Part shown: in pieces, positions 3,682 to 33,589 of the stretch
Layout of the letters: the number at the start of each line of letters is the position of its first letter
How positions within the stretch are numbered: the first letter of the stretch is position 1
Assembly: GCF_008831505.1 (NCBI RefSeq)
Contig: NZ_CP044507.1
Location: 1,240,001-1,304,000, forward strand
Length of the DNA: 64,000 nt
Source of the DNA: Chryseobacterium sp.
GTDB lineage: Bacteria > Bacteroidota > Bacteroidia > Flavobacteriales > Weeksellaceae
Direction of reading: 5' to 3'
The notes under the pieces: generated by a model
Databases searched by the model: none
Told to the model about the DNA's origin: nothing
The model's input: the letters and a program-made list of their open reading frames with translations, nothing else
Program-made: the position numbers and the translations under genes

Positions 3682-6597
3682 ATGCAAGGAAAAGGATTTA
3701 TAACGCTTATTGCGGTTATACTAGGCTTAATCTGCATCAACGAGTTGCTGCCCACGTGGTATGCCGGTAAAGTTGAGAAGCAGGCTACAGAAATTTCGGC
3801 AGGGGATCCTGTGAAATATCAGAAAGAGCTGGACAGGCTCTCCAAGGATACCCTTAATCTTGGGTTTACAAAACTCCATTATAAAGGAGCCAAGGAAAAA
3901 GAAATGAAACTTGGTCTGGACCTTAAAGGCGGTATCAATGTACTGTTGGAAATTAACCAGAGAGATCTCATCAGTAACCTGACCAATTATTCAGAAAACC
4001 CTATCCTGATTGAGGCACTGAACCGTACTGATGAAGTCCAGAAGAACTCAACCCGTTCCTACATAGATAACTTTTTTGTGCAGTTTGACGCTGTGAATAA
4101 AGAGAAAGGTGCTAACCTTAAACTTGCCGACCCTGAAATCTTCGGCAATCCAAACCTTACTGAGATCCGGTTTAACACCAGCGACGAGGAAGTTAAAAAA
4201 ATCGTAAGCAACAGAATTGAACTGTCTACCGGTACCGCATATGAGGTAATCCGTACCCGTATCGATAAGATGGGGGTAACGCAGCCAAACGTTCAGCGTG
4301 TACCCGGCACAGGTCGTATTTCCGTGGAAATGCCGGGTGTAAAAGATATTGACCGTGTAAAGAAAATGCTTCAGACTTCTGCAAAACTACAGTTCTGGGA
4401 AGTACAGCAACTTCCGGAAGTGGCTCCTTATTTTGAGCAGCTTTCACAAATTATCGCGGTTAAAGGTGATTCTATAGGCGTACCGAAGACAACAAACCTG
4501 ATGAACTTGCTGCAGCTCAATACAATGGCTGCAAACGGTGTGGGTAATATAAAACTTAGTGATACCGCAACAGTAAATAAAATTCTGAACAGCGAGATTG
4601 CAAAAAAAGCCAGACCAGCCAATATCAAGCATACCAACTTCTTTTGGGGATATAAACCGGATGCAGGCAACGAAGGTAATTTGGTTCTGTATGCAATTAG
4701 AGGAAATGCCTCGCAGAAAGCTCCCGTAGATGGTGCCGTAGAATCTGCAAACATAGGATATGACGACTTAGGCAGAGTAGTGGTAGACATGCAGATGGAT
4801 TCCAAAGGTGCAAAGGACTGGAAAACCATGACTGAGAAAAACGTTGGAAAGCCGGTTGCTGTTACCCTGGACAATGTGGTATATACCGCTCCTAATGTAA
4901 ACGAAGCCATCCCAAGCGGAAGAACTCAGATCTCCGGAAACTTTTCTCAGGAAGAGGCCCAGGATTTGGTGAATGTTCTTGGCGCAGGTAAACTTCCTGC
5001 AGGTGCTAAAATCGTACAGGCAGAAGTGGTAGGGCCATCATTGGGTGCTGAATCTATCCAGTCCGGTATGTGGTCTTTCATCATCGCCTTTTTGATTATC
5101 GTTGTTTACCTGATATTTTATTATGGCGGCGCCGGTGTTTACGCGGTTATTGCAATGCTCATCAACCTGTTCTTCCTTATGGGTATTATGGATTCGGTGG
5201 ATGCTACGCTTACCCTTCCCGGTATTGCGGGGGTAGTACTTTCCATGGCCATGGCCATTGATGCCAACGTAATTGTATATGAAAGAACCAAGGAAGAACT
5301 CTTCCTGGGTAAAAATATCAAGGAAGCCTACAAAGAAGGGTTCAATTTCTCCCTTTCTGCTATTATTGACGGTAACATCACTTCACTCCTTACAGCAATT
5401 GTACTTTATGTTTTCGGTACGGGACCAATTAAAGGTTTTGCTGTTACATTGGGTATCGGTATCCTGATGTCTATGTTTACCTGTGTACTTCTAACAAGGG
5501 TGATGATTTTTAACCGTCTTGAAAAAGGCAAAGGACTGTCAGTTTGGACACCGATGACCAAGAATCTGTTCCGCAATACGTGGATCGATTTTATCGGCAA
5601 AAGAAAATTCGCCTATATCTTCTCGGCCATACTTACAGTAATCTGTCTCGGATCAATCTTTACACAAGGATTTAAATTTGGTGTAGATTTTAACGGCGGG
5701 CGGAGTTATGTAGTTCGTTTCGACAAATCCGTTAATCCGGTTGATGCGGATGAGAGTCTGCAAAAGATCTTTGTGGCGAAGGATGGAGACCAGAATGCGG
5801 TTGATGTAAAAACATTCGGCAGCGATAACCAGCTGAAGATTACTACGGATTATATGATCAATGAGCAATCCGTAGAAGCTGATATGGCCGTAGAACAGAA
5901 ACTGTTTGAAGGTCTTAAACCATACCTACCGGCAAATGCCTCAATTCAAAATTTCAAAGGCGGAGATGACGGTGCTGCTTATGGAATCATCAGTTCCGTA
6001 AAAGTAGGCCCTACCGTTGCCGATGATATTAAGACGGGTGGTGCCCTGGCACTGTTTATCGCACTTATCGGTATCTTCCTTTATATTCTTTTAAGATTTA
6101 AAAGATGGCAGTTCTCCACCGGAGCCATTGCTTCTCTGGTGCATGATGCGATCGTGATCCTGGGTGTGTATTCCTTACTCAGGAATATGATGCCGTTCAG
6201 CATGGAGATCAATCAGGACTTTATTGCGGCTTTGCTTACAGTTCTGGGTTACTCCATCAATGATACGGTAATCATTTTTGACAGAATTCGTGAGTATCTG
6301 AAGGAAAAGAAATCGTTGACACTGGAGAACCTTTTCAACGACTCGATTTCAAGCACGCTGGGCCGGACGTTTAACACAGCCTTTGCAACCTTCCTTGTAA
6401 TCCTGGCCATCTTTATTTTTGGTGGTGAGAACCTGAGAGGGTTTATGTTTGCACTTCTGATAGGAGTAGGATTCGGAACATATTCCACATGGTTTATAGC
6501 CTCCGCAGTATCTTACGACCTTCTGAAGAAAAAGGGCACTAAAGCCCTTGCCGAGAAGCCTGCCGTAGAGGAGAACACAGGTTCAACACGCAATTAA
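3682..6597 (+). CDS. secDF: Protein translocase subunit SecDF (fused SecD and SecF)
   Basis: 971 residues, the single-chain SecDF usual in Bacteroidetes. The SecD half has an N-terminal membrane helix (about 3-22), the D1 motif LGLDLKGGINVLLEI at about 75-90, a periplasmic domain, and the segment SGRTQISGNFSQEEAQDL before five further helices (about 455-620). The SecF half starts near 640 and contains FKFGVDFNGGRSYVVRF (about 664) and helices around 785-950. SecDF uses the proton gradient to pull preproteins from the SecYEG channel into the periplasm. A strong terminator follows. There are no signs of damage. Confidence 0.97.
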   Translation: MQGKGFITLIAVILGLICINELLPTWYAGKVEKQATEISAGDPVKYQKELDRLSKDTLNLGFTKLHYKGAKEKEMKLGLDLKGGINVLLEINQRDLISNLTNYSENPILIEALNRTDEVQKNSTRSYIDNFFVQFDAVNKEKGANLKLADPEIFGNPNLTEIRFNTSDEEVKKIVSNRIELSTGTAYEVIRTRIDKMGVTQPNVQRVPGTGRISVEMPGVKDIDRVKKMLQTSAKLQFWEVQQLPEVAPYFEQLSQIIAVKGDSIGVPKTTNLMNLLQLNTMAANGVGNIKLSDTATVNKILNSEIAKKARPANIKHTNFFWGYKPDAGNEGNLVLYAIRGNASQKAPVDGAVESANIGYDDLGRVVVDMQMDSKGAKDWKTMTEKNVGKPVAVTLDNVVYTAPNVNEAIPSGRTQISGNFSQEEAQDLVNVLGAGKLPAGAKIVQAEVVGPSLGAESIQSGMWSFIIAFLIIVVYLIFYYGGAGVYAVIAMLINLFFLMGIMDSVDATLTLPGIAGVVLSMAMAIDANVIVYERTKEELFLGKNIKEAYKEGFNFSLSAIIDGNITSLLTAIVLYVFGTGPIKGFAVTLGIGILMSMFTCVLLTRVMIFNRLEKGKGLSVWTPMTKNLFRNTWIDFIGKRKFAYIFSAILTVICLGSIFTQGFKFGVDFNGGRSYVVRFDKSVNPVDADESLQKIFVAKDGDQNAVDVKTFGSDNQLKITTDYMINEQSVEADMAVEQKLFEGLKPYLPANASIQNFKGGDDGAAYGIISSVKVGPTVADDIKTGGALALFIALIGIFLYILLRFKRWQFSTGAIASLVHDAIVILGVYSLLRNMMPFSMEINQDFIAALLTVLGYSINDTVIIFDRIREYLKEKKSLTLENLFNDSISSTLGRTFNTAFATFLVILAIFIFGGENLRGFMFALLIGVGFGTYSTWFIASAVSYDLLKKKGTKALAEKPAVEENTGSTRN

Positions 6598-6617
6598 TAG
6601 TTTATCATATAGTGCCG

Positions 6618-6646
6618 ATGTCCCCTTTTTGGGGACATTTTTTTTG
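6618..6646 (+). terminator. Rho-independent terminator after secDF
   Basis: Stem ATGTCCCC / GGGGACAT with a T5 loop, followed by a run of T, 20 bases after the secDF stop codon. Confidence 0.85.
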
Positions 6647-6720
6647 TTGATGTATATGCAGCAATATAATTGTCTGCTCATTTTGAAAAAATAGCTGCTT
6701 CCACAGTATTCAATAATTCT

Positions 6721-6728
6721 TACCTTCG
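6721..6728 (+). promoter_or_regulatory. Possible -7 box directly before the MFS gene
   Basis: TACCTTCG is a near match to TAnnTTTG and ends 5 bases before the GTG start at 6734. If it is used, transcription would begin essentially at the start codon. No good -33 element is visible. Confidence 0.4.
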
Positions 6729-6733
6729 CAGCT

Positions 6734-7960
6734 GTGAAAAAGAATAAAAAATCGGCAGCCATAGGGTTTATATTTATTACTCTTTTGGTTGATATCACTG
6801 GCTGGGGGATTGTAATTCCGGTTGTACCATCGCTCATCCAGGAACTCATTCATGACGCTGATCTCAGCGTGGCATCCCAGTACGGCGGTTGGCTTAGCTT
6901 TGTCTACGCTTTTATGCAGTTTCTTTTTGCACCTATTCTCGGTAACCTGAGTGACAAATACGGTAGGCGGCCCGTTATCCTGTTTGCGCTACTGGGCTTT
7001 GCGCTAAACTTCTTCATCCAGGCCTGGGCACCAACTATATTCTGGCTGTTCGTGGGCCGGATTCTCTCCGGAGTTACAGGTGCGAGTATTACCACTGCCA
7101 GCGCGTATATCGCTGATATTTCTGATGACAGCAACCGGGCTAAAAATTTTGGGATGATAGGCGCTGCCTTTGGTCTGGGCTTCATCCTGGGACCTGTGAT
7201 TGGCGGACTGCTGGGACAGTTTGGTCCACGTGTTCCGTTTATAGCAGCCGGTATTCTCTGCTTACTGAACTTCCTGTATGGTATCTTTGTACTTCCTGAA
7301 AGTCTCGGTCAGGAGCACCGGCGCAATTTCAGCTGGAAACGTGCCAATCCGGTGGGCACACTTTTCAATATCCGACGCTACCCAGCCATCCTTTATCTGA
7401 TGATGGCCTGGTTCCTGGTTTATATCGCCGCACATGCCATCCAGACAAACTGGGCCTTCTTTACCATGTACCGCTTCAGTTGGGATGAGAAGATGGTCGG
7501 CATTTCGCTCGGAGTTATGGGAGCCATGACTGCTGTTGTGCAGGGCTTTCTGATTCGCCGTATACATCCTAAGTTCGGGACCGAACGCAGTATTTTGTAC
7601 GGTATTATGCTTTATGCTACAGGTATGTTGCTTTTCGCATTCGCTTATAAGGAATGGATGATGTTCGCTATCTTAATGCTTTACTGTTTGGGTGGAATCG
7701 CCGGCCCGGCACTGCAGTCTGTGATCTCATCCAAAGTACCTGCCAACGAGCAGGGCGACATCCAGGGTGCACTCACATCAGTAGTAAGCATTACGTCCAT
7801 CATTGGACCACCACTGATGACGAACGTGTTTTATTTCTTTACACATGATCAGGCGCCTTTCCAGTTCCCGGGCGCACCTTTCTTCCTGGGTTTTCTATTT
7901 ATGGCTACCAGTGCGGGATTTGTGTACTACGTTTTTCACCGGAAAAAATCTAAAAAGTGA
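6734..7960 (+). CDS. MFS transporter, TetA/TCR-type drug:H+ antiporter family
   Basis: 408 residues with about 12 hydrophobic segments. Helix 1 carries the TetA-like stretch DITGWGIVIPVVPSLI, and the loop between helices 2 and 3 has motif A (GNLSDKYGRRPVI, about 69-81). Further TetA-type features are the SGVTGASITTASAYIAD segment and the helix 5 region GLGFILGPVIGGLLG. Flavobacterial relatives are usually annotated as TCR/Tet family exporters, but the substrate cannot be read from sequence and resistance should not be assumed. The start is GTG at 6734, directly behind a possible -7 box; no other start fits the first helix. It is a single gene between the secDF terminator and tatA. Confidence 0.85.
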   Translation: MKKNKKSAAIGFIFITLLVDITGWGIVIPVVPSLIQELIHDADLSVASQYGGWLSFVYAFMQFLFAPILGNLSDKYGRRPVILFALLGFALNFFIQAWAPTIFWLFVGRILSGVTGASITTASAYIADISDDSNRAKNFGMIGAAFGLGFILGPVIGGLLGQFGPRVPFIAAGILCLLNFLYGIFVLPESLGQEHRRNFSWKRANPVGTLFNIRRYPAILYLMMAWFLVYIAAHAIQTNWAFFTMYRFSWDEKMVGISLGVMGAMTAVVQGFLIRRIHPKFGTERSILYGIMLYATGMLLFAFAYKEWMMFAILMLYCLGGIAGPALQSVISSKVPANEQGDIQGALTSVVSITSIIGPPLMTNVFYFFTHDQAPFQFPGAPFFLGFLFMATSAGFVYYVFHRKKSKK

Positions 7961-8946: not shown

Positions 8947-9762
8947 ATGAGAAAAATTTACACTTTTATGGCAATAGGCACGATGGCACTTGCTCCAGCC
9001 CAATTGCAGGATTCAAAAGCGGCGGATGAATGCTTCAAAAAAGCCGATTATAAATGTGCAGAAACAGCCTATGCTTCACTTGCCGATAAGGAGCGGATTG
9101 GCAAGCTGAAAGCTCAGTTCTACAATGGTTTGGGAACCTCACAGCGCCGTCTAGGCAAGACTCAGCAGGCTTTTACTTCCTATCAGAATGCACTGAAGGC
9201 CGATCCTAACAGTCTGGATACCTATGTTAATTTAAGTTCAATGCATGCCCAGTGGGGTAATAAACAAAATGCGCTGGATTTTGCCGCCAAAGGTCTGCTT
9301 CTGGACCCTGAAAATGCTGATCTTTTCCTTACCCGCGCCAAAATTTATGAAGAACTTAAAAAAAATGATCTGGCTGAAAAAGATTATAAGCATCTCATTT
9401 CCATTGCCCCGGATAATCTCATAGCACGTACCAATTACGCTACTTTTAAAATGAACAGCGGTAAACTGGATGATGCGCTTAAGGACTACAATACACTGAT
9501 CGCTGAAAAACCTGAAAGTCTGCTTTACAACAACCGTGCATCGGTTTACCTGGCGCAGAAGAAGTATAAGGAAGCTACTGCAGATGTGGAAAAAGCAATT
9601 AAACTGGATCCGAAATTCTCACTCTCATACGTTACAAAAGCCCGGATTCAATTTGAGACCAACCGTGCTGCAGATGCCTGTCTGAACCTTGAAAAAGCAC
9701 TGAAAACCGGTTTTGAGAAGTATCTGATCAACGATCTGCTGAAAAAGTGTGCAACAAAATAA
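8947..9762 (+). CDS. Exported TPR-repeat protein
   Basis: 271 residues. The first 19 residues look like a signal peptide (MRKIYTFMAIGTMALAPAQ). From about 30 to the end it is a chain of TPR units with the usual spacing (SYQNALKADPNSLDTYVNLS, DYKHLISIAPDNLIARTNYA, DVEKAIKLDPKFSLSYVTKA). No enzymatic domain is visible. It follows the PAP2 gene by 11 bases and closes the tatA-PAP2-TPR group. The role is unknown, most likely protein interaction in the periplasm. Confidence 0.82.
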   Translation: MRKIYTFMAIGTMALAPAQLQDSKAADECFKKADYKCAETAYASLADKERIGKLKAQFYNGLGTSQRRLGKTQQAFTSYQNALKADPNSLDTYVNLSSMHAQWGNKQNALDFAAKGLLLDPENADLFLTRAKIYEELKKNDLAEKDYKHLISIAPDNLIARTNYATFKMNSGKLDDALKDYNTLIAEKPESLLYNNRASVYLAQKKYKEATADVEKAIKLDPKFSLSYVTKARIQFETNRAADACLNLEKALKTGFEKYLINDLLKKCATK

Positions 9763-9773
9763 CGGCCTGGATT

Positions 9774-10247
9774 TCAGTCGTTGTGATAGGGTTTACCCTG
9801 TAGGATCTGATCGGCACGGTAAAGCTGCTCCACGAAGAATAGCCGGATCATCTGATGTGTGAACGTCATCCTGGAAAGTGAAAGTTTTTCATTGGCTTGA
9901 TGGTGAAGTTCAGGTGCAAAGCCATAGGCACCGCCAATCAGGAAATTGATTTTTTTCACGGATGAATTCATCCACACATCCATCTTAGCTGCAAATTCAC
10001 GGCTGCTGTACTGTTTCCCGTTTTCATCAAGCAGCACAGTGATGTCCGAAGGTTCAATTTGGTTTGAAAAAAGTTTGGCTTCTTCTTTTTTCAGCAGATC
10101 CGGTGACAGATTTCCGGCGTTTCTTACATCCGGAATTTCAATGAGTTCAAAGTTCCAGTGGCGGGGAAGGCGTATACGGTAATATTCCAGAAGACCCCTA
10201 ATTTCGGCACTTGCAGTCTTGCCGATACACAGTAAATTGATTCGCAT
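9774..10247 (-). CDS. rlmH: 23S rRNA (pseudouridine1915-N3)-methyltransferase RlmH
   Basis: 157 residues, the normal length for this SPOUT methyltransferase. The start MRINLLCIGKT, the SAM knot motif FLIGGAYGFAP (about 98-110) and the C-terminal block LSRMTFTHQMIRLFFVEQLYRA ending in PYHND are diagnostic. RlmH methylates pseudouridine 1915 in helix 69 of 23S rRNA after 70S assembly. It is convergent with the TPR gene (11-base gap) and divergent from the BrkB-type gene. Confidence 0.95.
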   Translation of the reverse strand: MRINLLCIGKTASAEIRGLLEYYRIRLPRHWNFELIEIPDVRNAGNLSPDLLKKEEAKLFSNQIEPSDITVLLDENGKQYSSREFAAKMDVWMNSSVKKINFLIGGAYGFAPELHHQANEKLSLSRMTFTHQMIRLFFVEQLYRADQILQGKPYHND

Positions 10248-10277
10248 TGCTTATATTTGTTCTGCAAATATAGTTGA

Positions 10278-11300
10278 ATGACGTTTAGAACCCCACGCTT
10301 CATAAGAAAAATTCATCAGTTCCTGGACGGCATCCATATACCTTTTCTGGGGGTATCGCTGTGGAAAATGTTTGAAATTTATATTCAGGGGGTTTTCAAA
10401 AATAAGATAGGCCGGACGGCAGGCGCCATCTCCTGGAACTTTGTTTTCTCACTTTTTCCCTTTATCCTCTTCCTGCTTTCCATAATGCCTTACTTGCCGT
10501 ATTATGACAGGCTGCAGTTTTATATTTTTGACGTGCTCATGCACCAGATATTCCCTGGCAGAATAGAGGAGGATGTAATAAGCTATATTAAAAATACAAT
10601 CATTCCCAATACAACCTCAATTAGTAAAATTACCATTGTACTGGCTTTGTTTTTTGCCACCAACGGCACTTTTGCATTAATTGACGGTTTTAATGAATAT
10701 ACGGATGTAAAGCATCACGATGTTAAAGAGTTCATCACCGCATTTTTCATTACCATAGCCTTCATCAGCGTTATTTTCCTGGCACTCTTTGGAGTGTACT
10801 ACGCTGAACTTGTGTTGAAATGGTTTAAACCGTCCTACGATATTTCCTGGTTTGTGGAAAACCTTTCCAGGATCATCGGTTTTATCTCCTTTCCGCTTTT
10901 CTATTTCTTCCTGCTGGCCCTTTTTTATTGGGTAGGGACCGTTAAGATTACAAGATTTAAGCAGGCTGTACCCGGTGCTTTGCTTACAACGGTGCTTTTT
11001 GTGCTCACCACCTATCTCTTTGCGATTTATGCCCGGAATTTCGCCACCTATAATGTCCTCTATGGATCAATCGGAACCATGATCCTGTTAATGGTTTGGG
11101 TGAATGTAAATGTATATCTGCTGCTTTTTGGAAACGAGCTCAATTTGGCCATTCGCCGTGTGAGGCTGGACAAACTGATCGCTGATGAGCTGCAGAAGGA
11201 AATCCCAAAACAGGTACTTAATTCCGACTCAAAGCAGGTGATTGAAGAACATCAGATTATCCTTCCCAACAATTCTGCCGAAAACTCCTCCAAACCTTAA
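10278..11300 (+). CDS. YihY/BrkB family inner-membrane protein
   Basis: 340 residues with about six membrane helices between 35 and 300. Family marks are the region AGAISWNFVFSLFPFILFLLS and the C-terminal GSIGTMILLMVWVNVNVYLLLFGNELN. The family was formerly called ribonuclease BN, which is not its function; it is now treated as a putative transporter or envelope protein. The last 4 bases overlap the 3' end of nhaA on the other strand. Confidence 0.88.
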   Translation: MTFRTPRFIRKIHQFLDGIHIPFLGVSLWKMFEIYIQGVFKNKIGRTAGAISWNFVFSLFPFILFLLSIMPYLPYYDRLQFYIFDVLMHQIFPGRIEEDVISYIKNTIIPNTTSISKITIVLALFFATNGTFALIDGFNEYTDVKHHDVKEFITAFFITIAFISVIFLALFGVYYAELVLKWFKPSYDISWFVENLSRIIGFISFPLFYFFLLALFYWVGTVKITRFKQAVPGALLTTVLFVLTTYLFAIYARNFATYNVLYGSIGTMILLMVWVNVNVYLLLFGNELNLAIRRVRLDKLIADELQKEIPKQVLNSDSKQVIEEHQIILPNNSAENSSKP

Positions 11301-28271: not shown

Positions 28272-28625
28272 ATGGAAATAGACGAGATACTGGCGTATTG
28301 CAATGCAAAAAAAGGAGTGGAAGAAACTTTCCCCTTCGATCAGGAAACTTTAGTACTGAAAGTGGGAGGAAAAATGTTCCTCCTTATTCCGCTGGAGCAG
28401 CAGCCACTGACTATTTCCGTAAAGACTGACCCGGAATGGACCGCCGATCTCCGTGCCCAGCATTCTCAGATCACTGGCGCCTACCACATGAACAAAACAC
28501 ACTGGAACTCGGTGGTGTGCGAAGGCCTGAAAAAGGATTTGATCCTAATACTGATCGATCACTCGTATGAACTTATCTTTAAATCACTGACAAAGAAAAA
28601 GCAGTTAGAGTTATACGATATGTAG
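28272..28625 (+). CDS. MmcQ/YjbR family protein
   Basis: 117 residues. Typical order: ILAYCNAKKGVEETFPFD, then VLKVGGKMFLLI, KTDPEWTADLRAQH and a C-terminal GAYHMNKTHWNSVV block. The family has a CyaY-like fold and is often annotated as DNA-binding, with little experimental support. No signal peptide. It is divergent from the SDR gene with a 79-base gap. Confidence 0.88.
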   Translation: MEIDEILAYCNAKKGVEETFPFDQETLVLKVGGKMFLLIPLEQQPLTISVKTDPEWTADLRAQHSQITGAYHMNKTHWNSVVCEGLKKDLILILIDHSYELIFKSLTKKKQLELYDM

Positions 28626-28763
28626 TGAATGTGCAGATTATATATTATTTAATATAATAATGCTTGCGGGACCTAATTTTTTTTTTTTCTTTGATGTATT
28701 CTTAATAATGGCCAAAATATTAGAATAAACAGTTTAAGTTAAATTTAAAAAATTAAAAACGTT

Positions 28764-29066
28764 ATGAAAAAAATTATCTATCTAACTGCATTCTTCGCCA
28801 CTTATGGACTGACAAATGCAACACCAACGTCATCCGGTATAAATAGACCTTTGCCCGCGATTCTCGATATTTCGACTTGCTATCACCAAACGGTCACAGT
28901 TTATACTGATCACTGCGGTAAAAACGTTGGCACGACCTTTTCGCCATTGGTAGCTTTTCCGTGCGGTGATGGGCAGCCTGAAAATTCCGTTTCTCAAACC
29001 GAAAATCACATACAACTACCTCCTCCGCAAGGCCCACTCAAGCCCTGTACGAGTCTTGAAGCATAA
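28764..29066 (+). CDS. Small secreted Cys/Pro-containing protein
   Basis: 100 residues with a clear signal peptide (MKKIIYLTAFFATYGLTNA). The mature part of about 80 residues has four Cys (in DISTCYHQ, DHCGKN, FPCGDG and KPCTSL) and a proline-rich tail (LPPPQGPLKP). I do not recognise a family. It ends 14 bases before the ATG of the GLPGLI gene, so the two are very likely co-transcribed. Upstream is a run of 13 T and AT-rich DNA. Four Cys in an exported protein suggest two disulfides. Confidence 0.65.
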   Translation: MKKIIYLTAFFATYGLTNATPTSSGINRPLPAILDISTCYHQTVTVYTDHCGKNVGTTFSPLVAFPCGDGQPENSVSQTENHIQLPPPQGPLKPCTSLEA

Positions 29067-29080
29067 AGATTGTGTATAAT

Positions 29081-29860
29081 ATGAAAAAGTACATCATATT
29101 GCTAATCCTCCTGGGTCTTGCTGAATTAACTGAGGCCCAGGGGATTTTAATTGAATATTCATATATTACTTTCGGAAACAATAAGGGAGCTAAAGCTTTC
29201 ACTTTTTCCAATGACCAAGAGAATACCTTCATGATTGGCGACGGTAAAAAAGGTGAGTATGGATATAAGGACGTGCTGGCAAACCCTGATTTACTAAATC
29301 CCTATTACCTATATAGCTACGATAAAACCAATGATACCTTTTATCAGGCTTTACCTTACTTTTTTACCACCGTTCCGGAGTTTGAAAGTAAATTTGCCGC
29401 AGATAAGGTTGGTGCTTTAAACTGGGTAATATCAGGTGATAAAAAAACCATTCTGGGTTATGAATGTACCCAAGCAACTGCGGAATTTCGGGGCCGCAAG
29501 TGGGAGGTGTGGTTTACAACGGCACTGAATGCTGAGGCATTTCCGTGGAAATTGCATGGTCTTCCGGGCGTAATCCTGGAAGCGCGGGACTCAGAGAAAT
29601 TATTTTTATTTATTGCCGATAGAATCTCTGTGAATTCCGAATATGATAATGTGCCGGGAGTTAAAAAGTTTTTCTCAAAAAACAGGACCGATGCCGTAGA
29701 CTATAAAACAGTAATCGAACATCAGAACAGAGGATTAATGGAGCTGCAGTCACAGCAGCTGTCCAAATATCCCTCCGGAACGCAGTTTCAGGGGATACCA
29801 CACTTTCGAAGCGGTGAGTTTGAAAGGCATCATGAATGGAACGACACTAAAAAGAAATGA
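29081..29860 (+). CDS. GLPGLI family exported protein
   Basis: 259 residues from the ATG at 29081 (a GTG at 29072 is less likely). Signal peptide MKKYIILLILLGLAELTEAQ. The family-defining stretch is WKLHGLPGVILEARD (GLPGVI variant), preceded by ILGYECTQATAEFRGRKWEVWF. GLPGLI proteins are periplasmic or surface proteins of Bacteroidetes without known function, and their genes often accompany outer-membrane barrels, as here. A large TonB-type barrel gene follows after 160 bases. Confidence 0.88.
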   Translation: MKKYIILLILLGLAELTEAQGILIEYSYITFGNNKGAKAFTFSNDQENTFMIGDGKKGEYGYKDVLANPDLLNPYYLYSYDKTNDTFYQALPYFFTTVPEFESKFAADKVGALNWVISGDKKTILGYECTQATAEFRGRKWEVWFTTALNAEAFPWKLHGLPGVILEARDSEKLFLFIADRISVNSEYDNVPGVKKFFSKNRTDAVDYKTVIEHQNRGLMELQSQQLSKYPSGTQFQGIPHFRSGEFERHHEWNDTKKK

Positions 29861-30020
29861 TATTTTTAATGTACGTAGAGTTTTCTGTCCTTCAACGATG
29901 TTGTAGATCCACTGTATATGCACACATCTAACCTTCCTGAAGGTGCGTAGCAGAATTCATGTATCCGCTTTTTGGAGATGGAAATTCCCTTTCAATAGCA
30001 AGCGATATTAAATAATATTA

Positions 30021-32672
30021 ATGAAGCATTTATGTGTACTTTTCACCATACTGTTTATAAAAATTTCTGCACAGTCAGAGATTAAAGGAATTGCGGTAGC
30101 CGAAAATGGTCAGCCAATTGTTCGGGCCAACGTTATTCTTTTTAATGCGGCAAATGAAATTGAAACTTTCGGTTTTAGCGATAAGACCGGAAGTTTTTCT
30201 GTTTCTACACAGAAAACAGGAAACTTTACCCTGCAGCTTGCCGCTTTTAACCATCATCCAACGAGTATAGAAGTAGTTCTGGATCATCAGAATAAAAGAA
30301 TCGATCTTCAGAAAGTTGAAATCTCCAAAATTCCGGAAAACGAAATCCAGGAAGTTATTGTTACAAAACAAAACCCGGTCCGTATTAGAAAAGATACTGT
30401 GGAGTATACCGCAGAAAAATTCGCCTCCGGCACAGAAATGAATGTGGAAGAACTGCTTAAAAAACTGCCCGGAATTACCGTAGAAAGTGACGGCAAAATA
30501 AAATTTAACAATAAGGAAGTGGAGCGCGTAATGATTGAAGACGATGACCTCTTCGAACGCGGCTACCAAACCCTTACCCAAAACATGCCCTCCCAATCAC
30601 TGGACAAAGTGCAGGTGCTCACCAACTACTCCCGCAACAAGCTCCTGAAAGACGTACAGAATGATGAACGGGTGGCCATAAACCTCACGCTGAAGGAAGA
30701 TGCCAAGGGAAAATGGTTTGGAAATGCGCTGTTTGCTACCACCAGCTATGTGGAAAACATGCATCAGGTCAAACTCAATGTGATGAATTTCTCAAAAAGG
30801 CGCAAATTCTATCTGCTCTACAACCGGAACAACCTGGGACTGAACGAAATGGGTGGCGTGGCCTACCTTATGAATCCAGCACAGGAAACCGATGCAGAAA
30901 ATATTGGCAGTAACCTTAGCATCAATCCTGTGATTCGGCTTCATCAAAAAAACAGTCAGTTCAGTGATAACCGCACGAACTTCAATGATGACCAGCTGGC
31001 ATCACTAAACTATATCTACAATTTCCGTAATGACTGGAAACTGAAATTCGTAACTGTTTACAACGACATTGAGAACCGGAATTACACGGATAATACTTAC
31101 CGTTTTATGTACGACGGACTTCAGTTTACCAATATTGAGAGTAAAACATGGAAGCAGAACATCCGCAATTTGGTAGGGAAGCTCGAACTGAGCAGGGAAT
31201 TCAGCAAAAATGCCAATCTGCAGTTTTATAACAAGACCTCCTCGGTACACGAACGAAACAGTAACGATTTTATCTTTAACGGTGCACTGAATCAGCAGTC
31301 TGGTAACAACCGTCTCACAAGTACAGAAAGCAAAATATCCTACACTAAAAAACTGGATTCGTCCAAAGCTTTAGTGGCGGTCGCCAGACATTATTATTAT
31401 GACCGACCCTATAATTTCACCGATGAAAATGAAGTGTTTACCTATGTCACAGGAAATCCTGAGGCCAGGCGGATCCGTCAGCAGCTTTATTCACAGCTGA
31501 ATTTTGCGGGAGCAAAAATATCATATCTGAACAGATACAGTGACAGTAAATACCTTGAACTTCAATTGGGTGATGAATACAGATCCGAAAAACTGAATTC
31601 GGAGATCAGTTTATTTAATAATGACCTGCAAAGCATTGTATTTAACCGTGCTGAATTCCAGAATGATATGTATCTGAAACAGAACCGCGTTTTTGCCAAA
31701 GGAAAATTCATCCACACTTATAAAAACTGGAAATACACCCTGGACCTGCTGTCCGAGTTGGTATCTTCAGACTTCAACCGTACCCTGCAGTCGGAGCTTT
31801 TTGTATCACCGGGATTCCATATCGGATTTGAGGACCGAAAGACCGGAAGTTTCACTTTATACGGAAACCGGCGGTTCACACCGCTGGCAATCGAAAATCT
31901 TTTGCAGAACTACATCTATCTGGGCAACCGCAATTTTACCGAAGGTACGGCCGGTTTTCAGCTGCTTCCCGATTACAGCCTCGGATTGTCCTACAGTTTA
32001 GGCGACCAACTCACTAAAAATCTGAACTTCAGTGTAAATTATATGCGTCTGGAGCGGTTTATGTCCAACAATTCACTGGTAAACAAAAACTACACATTCA
32101 ACCAGACCATTCTGGTTGAGGATAATGATACATTCTTTGCCAATCTGGAGGTAAGAAGGTATGTACGTTTTGTAAAATCACGCTTCAGCCTGCTGGGTGG
32201 ATTTATGTCTTCGGGCTATAAAAACAGCATTAACGGGCAGGAACTGGTAGAAAGTACATTTTCCAACAAAAAAGTAGGTTTTGAAATGAAATCCGGCTGG
32301 ACTAAGAAAATCAATTATGAGCTGGGCTATGACTGGACATTTTCCAGATTGAAATCTGTTTCGTTCACGAATGACTATTTGGATCAGAAAGGTTTTTTTA
32401 ATCTATACTACAACTTCAGCAGTGAATTCAGGATCCAGGGAAATTTTGAATACTATCATTTTGGCAATACGCCGCAGAAATCCACTCGTTTTCTGGATAT
32501 TAAAGCGGATTATATGATCAAGAAATTAAAAACCAATGTTTTCCTCCGCGCCAACAACCTGCTGAACTCAAGCACCATTCAGCGCTATTCACTAACAAAC
32601 GTGAGCGAAAGCATTTATACACAGCGCCTGATGCCAAGACATGTGGTTTTGGGAATTAACAAGAACTTTTAG
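30021..32672 (+). CDS. Outer-membrane beta-barrel protein, TonB-dependent receptor-like, with carboxypeptidase-regulatory N-domain
   Basis: 883 residues. Signal peptide MKHLCVLFTILFIKISAQ, a CarboxypepD_reg-like domain at about 20-100 (IKGIAVAENGQPIVRANVIL), then a plug-like region (VEELLKKLPGITVESDGKIKFN, IEDDDLFERGYQTLTQNMP) and a large C-terminal barrel with alternating aromatic strands to the final Phe. No TonB box is obvious. The group is the family often found beside GLPGLI genes. A cargo or ligand is not known. Confidence 0.85.
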   Translation: MKHLCVLFTILFIKISAQSEIKGIAVAENGQPIVRANVILFNAANEIETFGFSDKTGSFSVSTQKTGNFTLQLAAFNHHPTSIEVVLDHQNKRIDLQKVEISKIPENEIQEVIVTKQNPVRIRKDTVEYTAEKFASGTEMNVEELLKKLPGITVESDGKIKFNNKEVERVMIEDDDLFERGYQTLTQNMPSQSLDKVQVLTNYSRNKLLKDVQNDERVAINLTLKEDAKGKWFGNALFATTSYVENMHQVKLNVMNFSKRRKFYLLYNRNNLGLNEMGGVAYLMNPAQETDAENIGSNLSINPVIRLHQKNSQFSDNRTNFNDDQLASLNYIYNFRNDWKLKFVTVYNDIENRNYTDNTYRFMYDGLQFTNIESKTWKQNIRNLVGKLELSREFSKNANLQFYNKTSSVHERNSNDFIFNGALNQQSGNNRLTSTESKISYTKKLDSSKALVAVARHYYYDRPYNFTDENEVFTYVTGNPEARRIRQQLYSQLNFAGAKISYLNRYSDSKYLELQLGDEYRSEKLNSEISLFNNDLQSIVFNRAEFQNDMYLKQNRVFAKGKFIHTYKNWKYTLDLLSELVSSDFNRTLQSELFVSPGFHIGFEDRKTGSFTLYGNRRFTPLAIENLLQNYIYLGNRNFTEGTAGFQLLPDYSLGLSYSLGDQLTKNLNFSVNYMRLERFMSNNSLVNKNYTFNQTILVEDNDTFFANLEVRRYVRFVKSRFSLLGGFMSSGYKNSINGQELVESTFSNKKVGFEMKSGWTKKINYELGYDWTFSRLKSVSFTNDYLDQKGFFNLYYNFSSEFRIQGNFEYYHFGNTPQKSTRFLDIKADYMIKKLKTNVFLRANNLLNSSTIQRYSLTNVSESIYTQRLMPRHVVLGINKNF

Positions 32673-33589
32673 AAAGGAAATTCAGCGGTCAGCCTTTTAT
32701 CCTCATCCAGCCTTTCAATCAGCTTTTCCACCGAGTCAAACTTGATCTCATCATGCAGAAATTCACGAAAGTTTACTGAAATTTCTTCACCATAAATATC
32801 ATCATTAAAATCAAGGATATAGACTTCGGTGGAGAGGGAAGTACCATTCACCGTAGGGTTGGTGCCGATGCTCAGCATGCCTTTATATTTCTGGTCTTTT
32901 ACAAAGACCTCCACGATATAGGCCCCTTTCTTGGGCAGAAGTTTTAAGGGATCAGTCTCTATATTTGCCGTGGGATAACCGATGGTGCGTCCTATCTTTC
33001 TTCCATTGACCACTGTTCCTGAGACTGAAAATACATAACCCAGCATTTCGTTGGCCTCCTTTACATTTCCTGCGGCCAGCGCATTTCTGATCTGGGTGGA
33101 ACTGATGTTTCGGTCGTGGTAATTCACCGCCTCAACTTGCTGCACTTCAAAACCGCATTCGGTGGACATTTCCTTTAAAAGGTTAAAATCACCGCTTTTG
33201 TTCTTGCCGAAGGTGTGGTCGTGACCAATGATCAGGTGCTTTACATTCAACTTCTCTACCAGGATCTGCTTTACAAATTCAGCACCGCTGAGATTGCGGA
33301 ACTGTTCGTCGAATTCCTTCAGGAAAAGATGCTCCACACCATTTTTTTCAAGCAGATAAATCTTCTCGTCAATGGTGTTCAGCAGTTTCAGGTCGTCATT
33401 TGGGTTAAAAACTGTGCGCGGATGTGGCCAAAAAGTGAGGATGGCAGTCTGAAACCCCTTCTCACGGCTAATAGAATTAAGCTGGTTAATGATGGTCTGA
33501 TGACCGCGGTGCACCCCATCGAACATACCAATAGAAAGCGCCAGCGGCGTTTTTTCCTGGTGTTCGTTAAAGTTCCGAAATATTTTCAA
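32669..33589 (-). CDS. ribF: Bifunctional riboflavin kinase/FAD synthetase RibF
   Basis: 306 residues from the TTG at 33589 (LKIFRNFNEHQEKTPLALS), which matches the usual family start; the open frame continues upstream to 33676, but that stretch is the promoter and shows no family match. The FMN adenylyltransferase domain has SIGMFDGVHRGHQ and IIGHDHTFGKNKSGDF; the kinase domain has GRTIGYPTANI and SIGTNPTVNG. It makes FMN and FAD from riboflavin. The TTG start is unusual and could lower translation. The last bases overlap the end of the barrel gene. Confidence 0.93.
   Translation of the reverse strand: MKIFRNFNEHQEKTPLALSIGMFDGVHRGHQTIINQLNSISREKGFQTAILTFWPHPRTVFNPNDDLKLLNTIDEKIYLLEKNGVEHLFLKEFDEQFRNLSGAEFVKQILVEKLNVKHLIIGHDHTFGKNKSGDFNLLKEMSTECGFEVQQVEAVNYHDRNISSTQIRNALAAGNVKEANEMLGYVFSVSGTVVNGRKIGRTIGYPTANIETDPLKLLPKKGAYIVEVFVKDQKYKGMLSIGTNPTVNGTSLSTEVYILDFNDDIYGEEISVNFREFLHDEIKFDSVEKLIERLDEDKRLTAEFPF

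Follow-up and report, generated by a model that had tools for sequence, protein, structure and literature searches.

Among the described systems close to the one considered here is that of Myxococcus xanthus, in which the barrel protein Oar is needed for the TonB-dependent secretion of PopC (PMC6434023). The locus under study lies in a stretch of 64,000 nucleotides from Chryseobacterium sp. (contig NZ_CP044507.1, positions 1,240,001 to 1,304,000; the whole stretch is referred to hereafter as the window), where a small exported cysteine-containing protein, a member of the GLPGLI family and a TonB-type outer-membrane barrel are encoded one after the other. Oar and the window barrel have in common an N-terminal CarboxypepD_reg extension followed by a plug, and a periplasmic protein is the cargo of the former as it is proposed to be of the latter. 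Unlike the small protein, however, PopC is a protease devoid of a signal peptide, while neither a GLPGLI partner, a poly-T tract nor arrays with a constant leader are reported in the accessible part of the Oar account (PMC6434023); the export role of the window barrel is a prediction. The reading favoured here, to which a probability of about 0.45 is assigned, is that an Oar-like barrel, powered through TonB, exports or displays a disulfide mini-protein that is phase-variable, with the GLPGLI protein as its cognate periplasmic carrier.

The arrangement was first pointed out in an earlier note based on the bare sequence, which described a 100-residue exported protein with four cysteines and a proline-rich tail, a GLPGLI gene 14 bases further on and a large barrel gene thereafter. 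All three open reading frames (ORFs) are present as claimed, with 14 bases between the small-gene stop and the GLPGLI ATG (29081); the one correction concerns a gap of 160 bp between the GLPGLI and barrel genes in the window, two genes which in many relatives touch or overlap. The note's view that the three genes constitute one cassette is borne out by their conservation and co-occurrence. In a survey of 246 genomes of the family, one per species, a close barrel (E≤1e-100) was found in 22 genomes from 11 genera and a barrel at E≤1e-150 in 19. The small protein, scored as present at E≤1e-15 with a profile built from 26 members, occurs in 16 genomes, all of which belong to those 19 (Fisher p=1.9e-22), and always within the cassette. 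Around the close barrels the gene order is small exported protein, GLPGLI and barrel, often with two or three small-GLPGLI pairs per barrel. The note would have been contradicted by relatives devoid of a small exported reading frame at this position; of the 15 genomes whose barrel is at least 49% identical, 14 have a homologue at this place.

The association also holds when the small protein plays no part in the choice of loci. Where loci were selected solely on similarity to GLPGLI or the barrel, 31/55 GLPGLI genes have a small exported ORF (50-130 residues) directly upstream, as against 4/257 other genes. Conversely, 17 of the 18 loci recovered from weak small-protein matches (E about 1e-10 to 1e-4), some from another family of the same order (G347, G378), have a GLPGLI neighbour, three of these loci having slipped past the motif filter before their GLPGLI proteins were confirmed with TIGR01200. 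The note's proposal to survey other genomes for small cysteine proteins ahead of GLPGLI-barrel pairs also succeeded: among 70 independent barrels from named species with enough upstream sequence, 54 have a GLPGLI gene immediately upstream, and 23 of these 54 pairs are preceded by a small exported ORF, whose product mostly carries two or four cysteines after the leader. The small gene accompanies 22/42 barrels of up to 897 residues and 1/28 longer ones (p=8e-6), a dividing line drawn post hoc, after the data had been seen. Among the hosts of the architecture are Flavobacterium, Maribacter, Cellulophaga, Polaribacter, Aureivirga, Marivirga, Chryseobacterium and Faecalibacter. The notion of a small partner for each GLPGLI gene did not hold up. 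GLPGLI proteins occur in 230/246 family genomes, often several per genome; about three of 20 loci spread over the family's GLPGLI list have such a partner, and none of this kind was seen for the other nine GLPGLI genes of this genome.

Comparison of 20 small-GLPGLI pairs revealed how the parts of the cassette vary together. With the barrel held constant, identity of the mature core of the small protein follows that of GLPGLI (partial Mantel r=0.54, p=1e-4; r=0.57 without the near-orthologues L049 and L050), whereas the core against the barrel, given GLPGLI, yields r=0.11 (p=0.09; 0.18, p=0.02, without the same two loci). The signal peptide tracks the genome and the barrel (r=0.70 with the latter). 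Overall, identity is 0.50 in the leader of the small protein and 0.23 in its core, with the reverse in GLPGLI (0.29 and 0.31); within arrays the figures are 0.90 for the small-protein leader, 0.29 for the core and 0.30 for GLPGLI. In five of the seven arrays compared (L038, L041, L043, L044 and L047), the 60 bp upstream and the leader DNA are 82-100% identical, while the mature parts share at most 53% protein identity and the GLPGLI proteins 35-46%. The remaining two, L037 and L082, in which the small genes do not each have a GLPGLI gene, do not show this constant-leader pattern. One barrel serves arrays of several module types. Given this co-variation and the contrast between leader and core, the mature domain and GLPGLI act as a single cognate unit that can be exchanged while the leader in front stays constant. 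Conotoxins and the phase-variable Vlp lipoproteins of mycoplasma likewise combine a conserved signal peptide with a hypervariable mature part, and a homopolymer precedes the Vlp genes as it does here; neither is related in sequence to the small protein, and only the latter has a GLPGLI protein and a barrel as dedicated partners.

A variable domain that is matched to GLPGLI and not to the barrel fits a common conduit served by a specific carrier. The same correlations render it improbable that the small protein is a surface mask or regulator, which would bind the barrel and block it against phage or bacteriocins, or tune it, without passing through. Such a role would suit the co-inheritance of small protein and barrel, together with phase-variable expression of the kind typical of surface receptors, but after correction for GLPGLI no clear dependence of the core on the barrel is left.

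The window GLPGLI protein is a member of its family by sequence (TIGR01200 / PF09697 Porph_ging), matching TIGR01200 with E=1.8e-28 and 99.9 bits, against a curated cut-off of 50, and Pfam PF22252 with E=2.8e-6. The GPWKxxGLPGLILE-type motif is represented by FPWKLHGLPGVILE, and across 49 GLPGLI sequences P162 and G163 are invariant and G160 and L161 nearly so. Because no obvious catalytic set is found among the invariant residues, binding appears to be favoured over catalysis. A scan of the genome contigs with this protein as query gave no match, and a sequence search of the PDB returned chance matches only, so that a fold search was needed instead. The AlphaFold2 (AF2) model (predicted local distance difference test, pLDDT, 92.3) finds its best structural match in the N-terminal domain of PNGase F-II (PDB 4r4z, Z=15.2). 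Further fold matches at Z about 6-9 are ependymin-related protein (EPDR1), VioE, LolA, RseB and LolB, with EPDR1, LolA and RseB at Z 8-8.7; the many LolA, LolB and RseB entries at Z 6-8.4 are at a level that possibly reflects just a common arrangement, without sequence relation.

The PNGase F-II domain, termed the N-terminal bowl-like (NBL) domain, was called unique and of unknown function (PMC9522356). Its fold is predicted to be the same as that of GLPGLI (4r4x/4r4z and 7zgn, Z 14-15, together with PF22252), although the NBL domain is fused to a glycanase and GLPGLI stands alone. The common fold and the Pfam match suggest that the NBL domain of PNGase F-II-type glycanases may be a GLPGLI relative, in which case the GLPGLI link bears on the PNGase domain too. 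LolA, LolB and RseB are periplasmic like GLPGLI, whose predicted fold may be similar to their half-barrel; the Lol proteins carry lipoproteins, whereas no lipobox is apparent by eye in the leader of the mini-protein. The predicted LolA/RseB-like fold and the small-GLPGLI co-variation both lend support to the earlier suggestion that GLPGLI helps the small protein in the periplasm. Neither a function nor a small partner is given for the GLPGLI family in the literature searched, whose coverage is incomplete, making the absence weak evidence; the subset examined here is matched with a small exported protein.

Turning to that protein, its window representative has a hydrophobic leader, cysteines C39, C51, C67 and C94 in the mature part and a proline-rich tail. 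In the alignment of 26 members, M1, C39, G52 and C67 are invariant and the leader is of the type MKKxILGLxLTxGxSGxAxAN. Since leaders could inflate matches and the profile had been built from these same proteins, the mature parts were tested alone with leave-one-out profiles, and each of the 26 scored above its own 300 shuffles (window protein 42.9 bits, E=1.5e-15 at Z=1, with 0/300 shuffles as high). The conserved pair C39/C67 probably forms a disulfide. No convincing family match was found in Pfam or NCBIfam for any of the 26, the weak matches to PF20985, DUF6520 and PhrK, mostly under any meaningful level, being rejected; a PDB sequence search gave a best E of at least 0.14. The structural model, whose core is predicted with high confidence, places strands at 38-48, 54-59, 63-66 and 76-84; a structure search with it found no trustworthy PDB fold (best Z 3.1).

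The barrel is TonB-type by profile. In the window its sole Pfam match is CarboxypepD_reg at residues 21-95 (E=1.6e-7), without a Pfam barrel or plug match, and this extension stands ahead of the plug in 21-22 of 24 barrel members. PF14905 (OMP_b-brl_3) is matched by 2/24 homologues, both distant members (best E=3e-7). By hhalign, extension and plug together (residues 18-238) align with an OMP_b-brl_3 protein of the same genome at E=3.8e-10, and the plug at E=1e-5. A TonB-box-like EVIVT at residues 111-115 was recognised by eye only, and searching the PDB with a profile of the barrel sequence returned nothing at E≤0.01.

The T12 run ahead of the small gene is the only A/T run of at least 10 in the window and one of three of at least 12 in the 2.76-Mb genome; the other two lie outside the window (G000:C1:534310-534321 and 1326465-1326478) and are possible further phase-variable loci. 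Runs from T8 to T45 precede 19/28 cassette small genes, 35-79 bp from the start in all but one. Over 731 kb of the window and its relatives, 13 of 16 A/T runs of at least 12 were counted before a small gene, against 0.03 expected under a uniform model that ignores intergenic base composition. The duplicates L044a and L044b have near-identical flanks and tracts of T16 and T9. Tracts of this kind suggest slipped-strand phase variation. Tracts of T13 and T45 in L041 (7822-8190 and 9124-9168) and of T36 in L046 (6155-6190) also stand before small genes, and the L041 small gene downstream of T13 has lost its ATG. The tract does not belong to the architecture in general, as a run of at least 12 was present in 0/23 named-species small-GLPGLI-barrel loci and one of 8-11 in three. 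The canonical Bacteroidetes -33/-7 promoter could not be convincingly aligned beside the tract.

Cognate co-variation, arrays and poly-T switching, which would suit a costly effector, bring to mind a toxin-immunity system, in which the small protein would serve as an effector resembling a bacteriocin, GLPGLI would confer cognate immunity in the periplasm and the barrel would be an exporter or target receptor. The GLPGLI genes of G238, which lack small genes, also resemble orphan immunity genes. Nevertheless, in L038 the small gene is intact (10154-10447) while its GLPGLI gene (9354-10130) has an in-frame TAA, and L037 and L082 hold small genes without a GLPGLI of their own, both of which argue against a strict immunity role. 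Neither Pfam nor NCBIfam yielded a toxin family match for the small protein, and the toxin-immunity explanation is judged distinctly unlikely, if less so than the surface mask.

For the favoured export or display model, the following course may be envisaged. The mini-protein would be exported by Sec to the periplasm, where the C39/C67 pair would probably be oxidised to a disulfide; GLPGLI, of predicted LolA/RseB-like fold and itself periplasmic, would bind its own mini-protein and hand it over to the Oar-like TonB-dependent barrel, with its CarboxypepD_reg extension and plug, for passage to the surface of the cell or into the medium. The small gene would probably be turned on and off by slippage in the poly-T tract. 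Mature domain and GLPGLI would be swapped jointly, with leader and barrel staying constant, and the outward-facing part would thereby diversify. That this amounts to an export or display system of a new kind in Bacteroidota, in which every phase-variable mini-protein of disulfide type has a GLPGLI carrier to itself, with a LolA-like fold, and leaves through a shared TonB-powered barrel, and in which leader-constant module exchange diversifies the exported domain, is put forward more tentatively than the model itself.

Several observations weigh against export or display. TonB-dependent transporters mostly import; 31/54 GLPGLI-barrel pairs elsewhere have no small gene; L037 has three small genes to one GLPGLI gene; and, with one genome per species, no change of tract length within a species was seen. 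G238 (L034, 6895-13811) has seven tandem GLPGLI genes and a barrel with no small gene detected, either because the partners were lost or because these GLPGLI genes have another role. Together with the small-less pairs elsewhere, it indicates that GLPGLI and barrel have work to do without the small protein. The first two points, and the hydrophobic ligands bound by LolA-like folds, would favour uptake, whereby a ligand (metal, cofactor, peptide or lipid) enters through the barrel, GLPGLI binds this ligand in the periplasm and the small protein is a secreted scavenger that returns with it or a periplasmic accessory. A scavenger that has to dock on the barrel would nonetheless not be expected to combine a constant leader with a mature part that is hypervariable and matched to GLPGLI, not to the barrel, and no metal, haem or siderophore genes were noticed beside the cassettes, whose flanks were not systematically annotated. 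Uptake is regarded as unlikely, though the least so of the alternatives to export or display.

The features of the cassette in the window are compiled in Table 1.

Table 1. Coordinates of the cassette, its parts and its flanking genes (positions within the window).
Feature	Position	Strand	Basis or remark
T12 homopolymer tract	28677..28688	+	75 bp before small-gene ATG; candidate phase-variable promoter element
Small exported Cys protein gene, 100 aa	28764..29066	+	ORF and profile of homologues
Small protein signal peptide, residues 1-19	28764-28820	+	
Small protein conserved C39	28878-28880	+	G52 conserved too
Small protein conserved C67	28962-28964	+	
GLPGLI protein gene, 259 aa, exported	29081..29860	+	TIGR01200, PF22252, AF2 model
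TonB-type outer-membrane barrel gene, 883 aa	30021..32672	+	PF13620/PF13715; hhalign
Barrel CarboxypepD_reg N-terminal extension	about 30081-30305	+	
Barrel plug-like region	about 30336-30743	+	
MmcQ/YjbR-type gene, left flank	28272..28625	+	outside cassette; sub-cut-off NF007603 match
Riboflavin kinase/FMN adenylyltransferase-like gene, right flank	32669..33523	-	outside cassette

The 4-kb cassette sits between the YjbR-type and riboflavin-kinase genes, the stop of the barrel gene overlapping that of the latter by 4 bp. The two flanking genes abut, with no cassette between them, in three sister species from the genus (4-bp overlap in two, 12-bp gap in one). The same site is used in other genera (L034, L035, L039, L040, L041 and L043), and the cassette is at other sites in L036, L037, L038, L045 and L046. 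This empty site, the poly-T tract, the constant leader with its variable mature part and the arrays are all new beyond the earlier note.

A few loci show variations on the arrangement. The barrel gene of L040 (G200, 4301-6953) is split over two reading frames, with intact small and GLPGLI genes upstream. L153 (G020) encodes three small exported cysteine proteins (2290-2535, 3691-3948 and 5982-6251) with a near-identical leader beginning MKNLLFGA; after each comes an exported gene that is GLPGLI-like or of similar size, which is the same array logic with other mature sequences. Two small-GLPGLI pairs with the common leader MKKLLFVAALGVAGFMSAK and cysteine-rich mature parts adjoin ribosomal-protein genes in L090 (G100, 4274-6840). 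L091 (G127) and L092 (G103) have at about 5500-7550 a different small cysteine protein and two GLPGLI genes with no barrel, placed between riboflavin-kinase and atpD genes near the site of the window cassette.

The note also held that the system is undescribed, which the literature searched on TonB-dependent proteins and on small secreted proteins or export in Bacteroidetes supports in so far as the architecture was not found there, its incomplete coverage making this weak evidence. In many Bacteroidota, then, an operon pairs a fast-changing disulfide-type mini-protein with a matching GLPGLI protein and a TonB-type barrel, apparently for the movement or display of the mini-protein. The role of the functionally unexplained GLPGLI family becomes testable through its cognate small partner and its dedicated barrel. 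Should export prove true, Oar/PopC would be joined by another example of TonB-dependent protein secretion, apparently a widespread one, which looks phase-variable and quick to diversify; a new export or display system would mean a first function for one clade within the large GLPGLI family.

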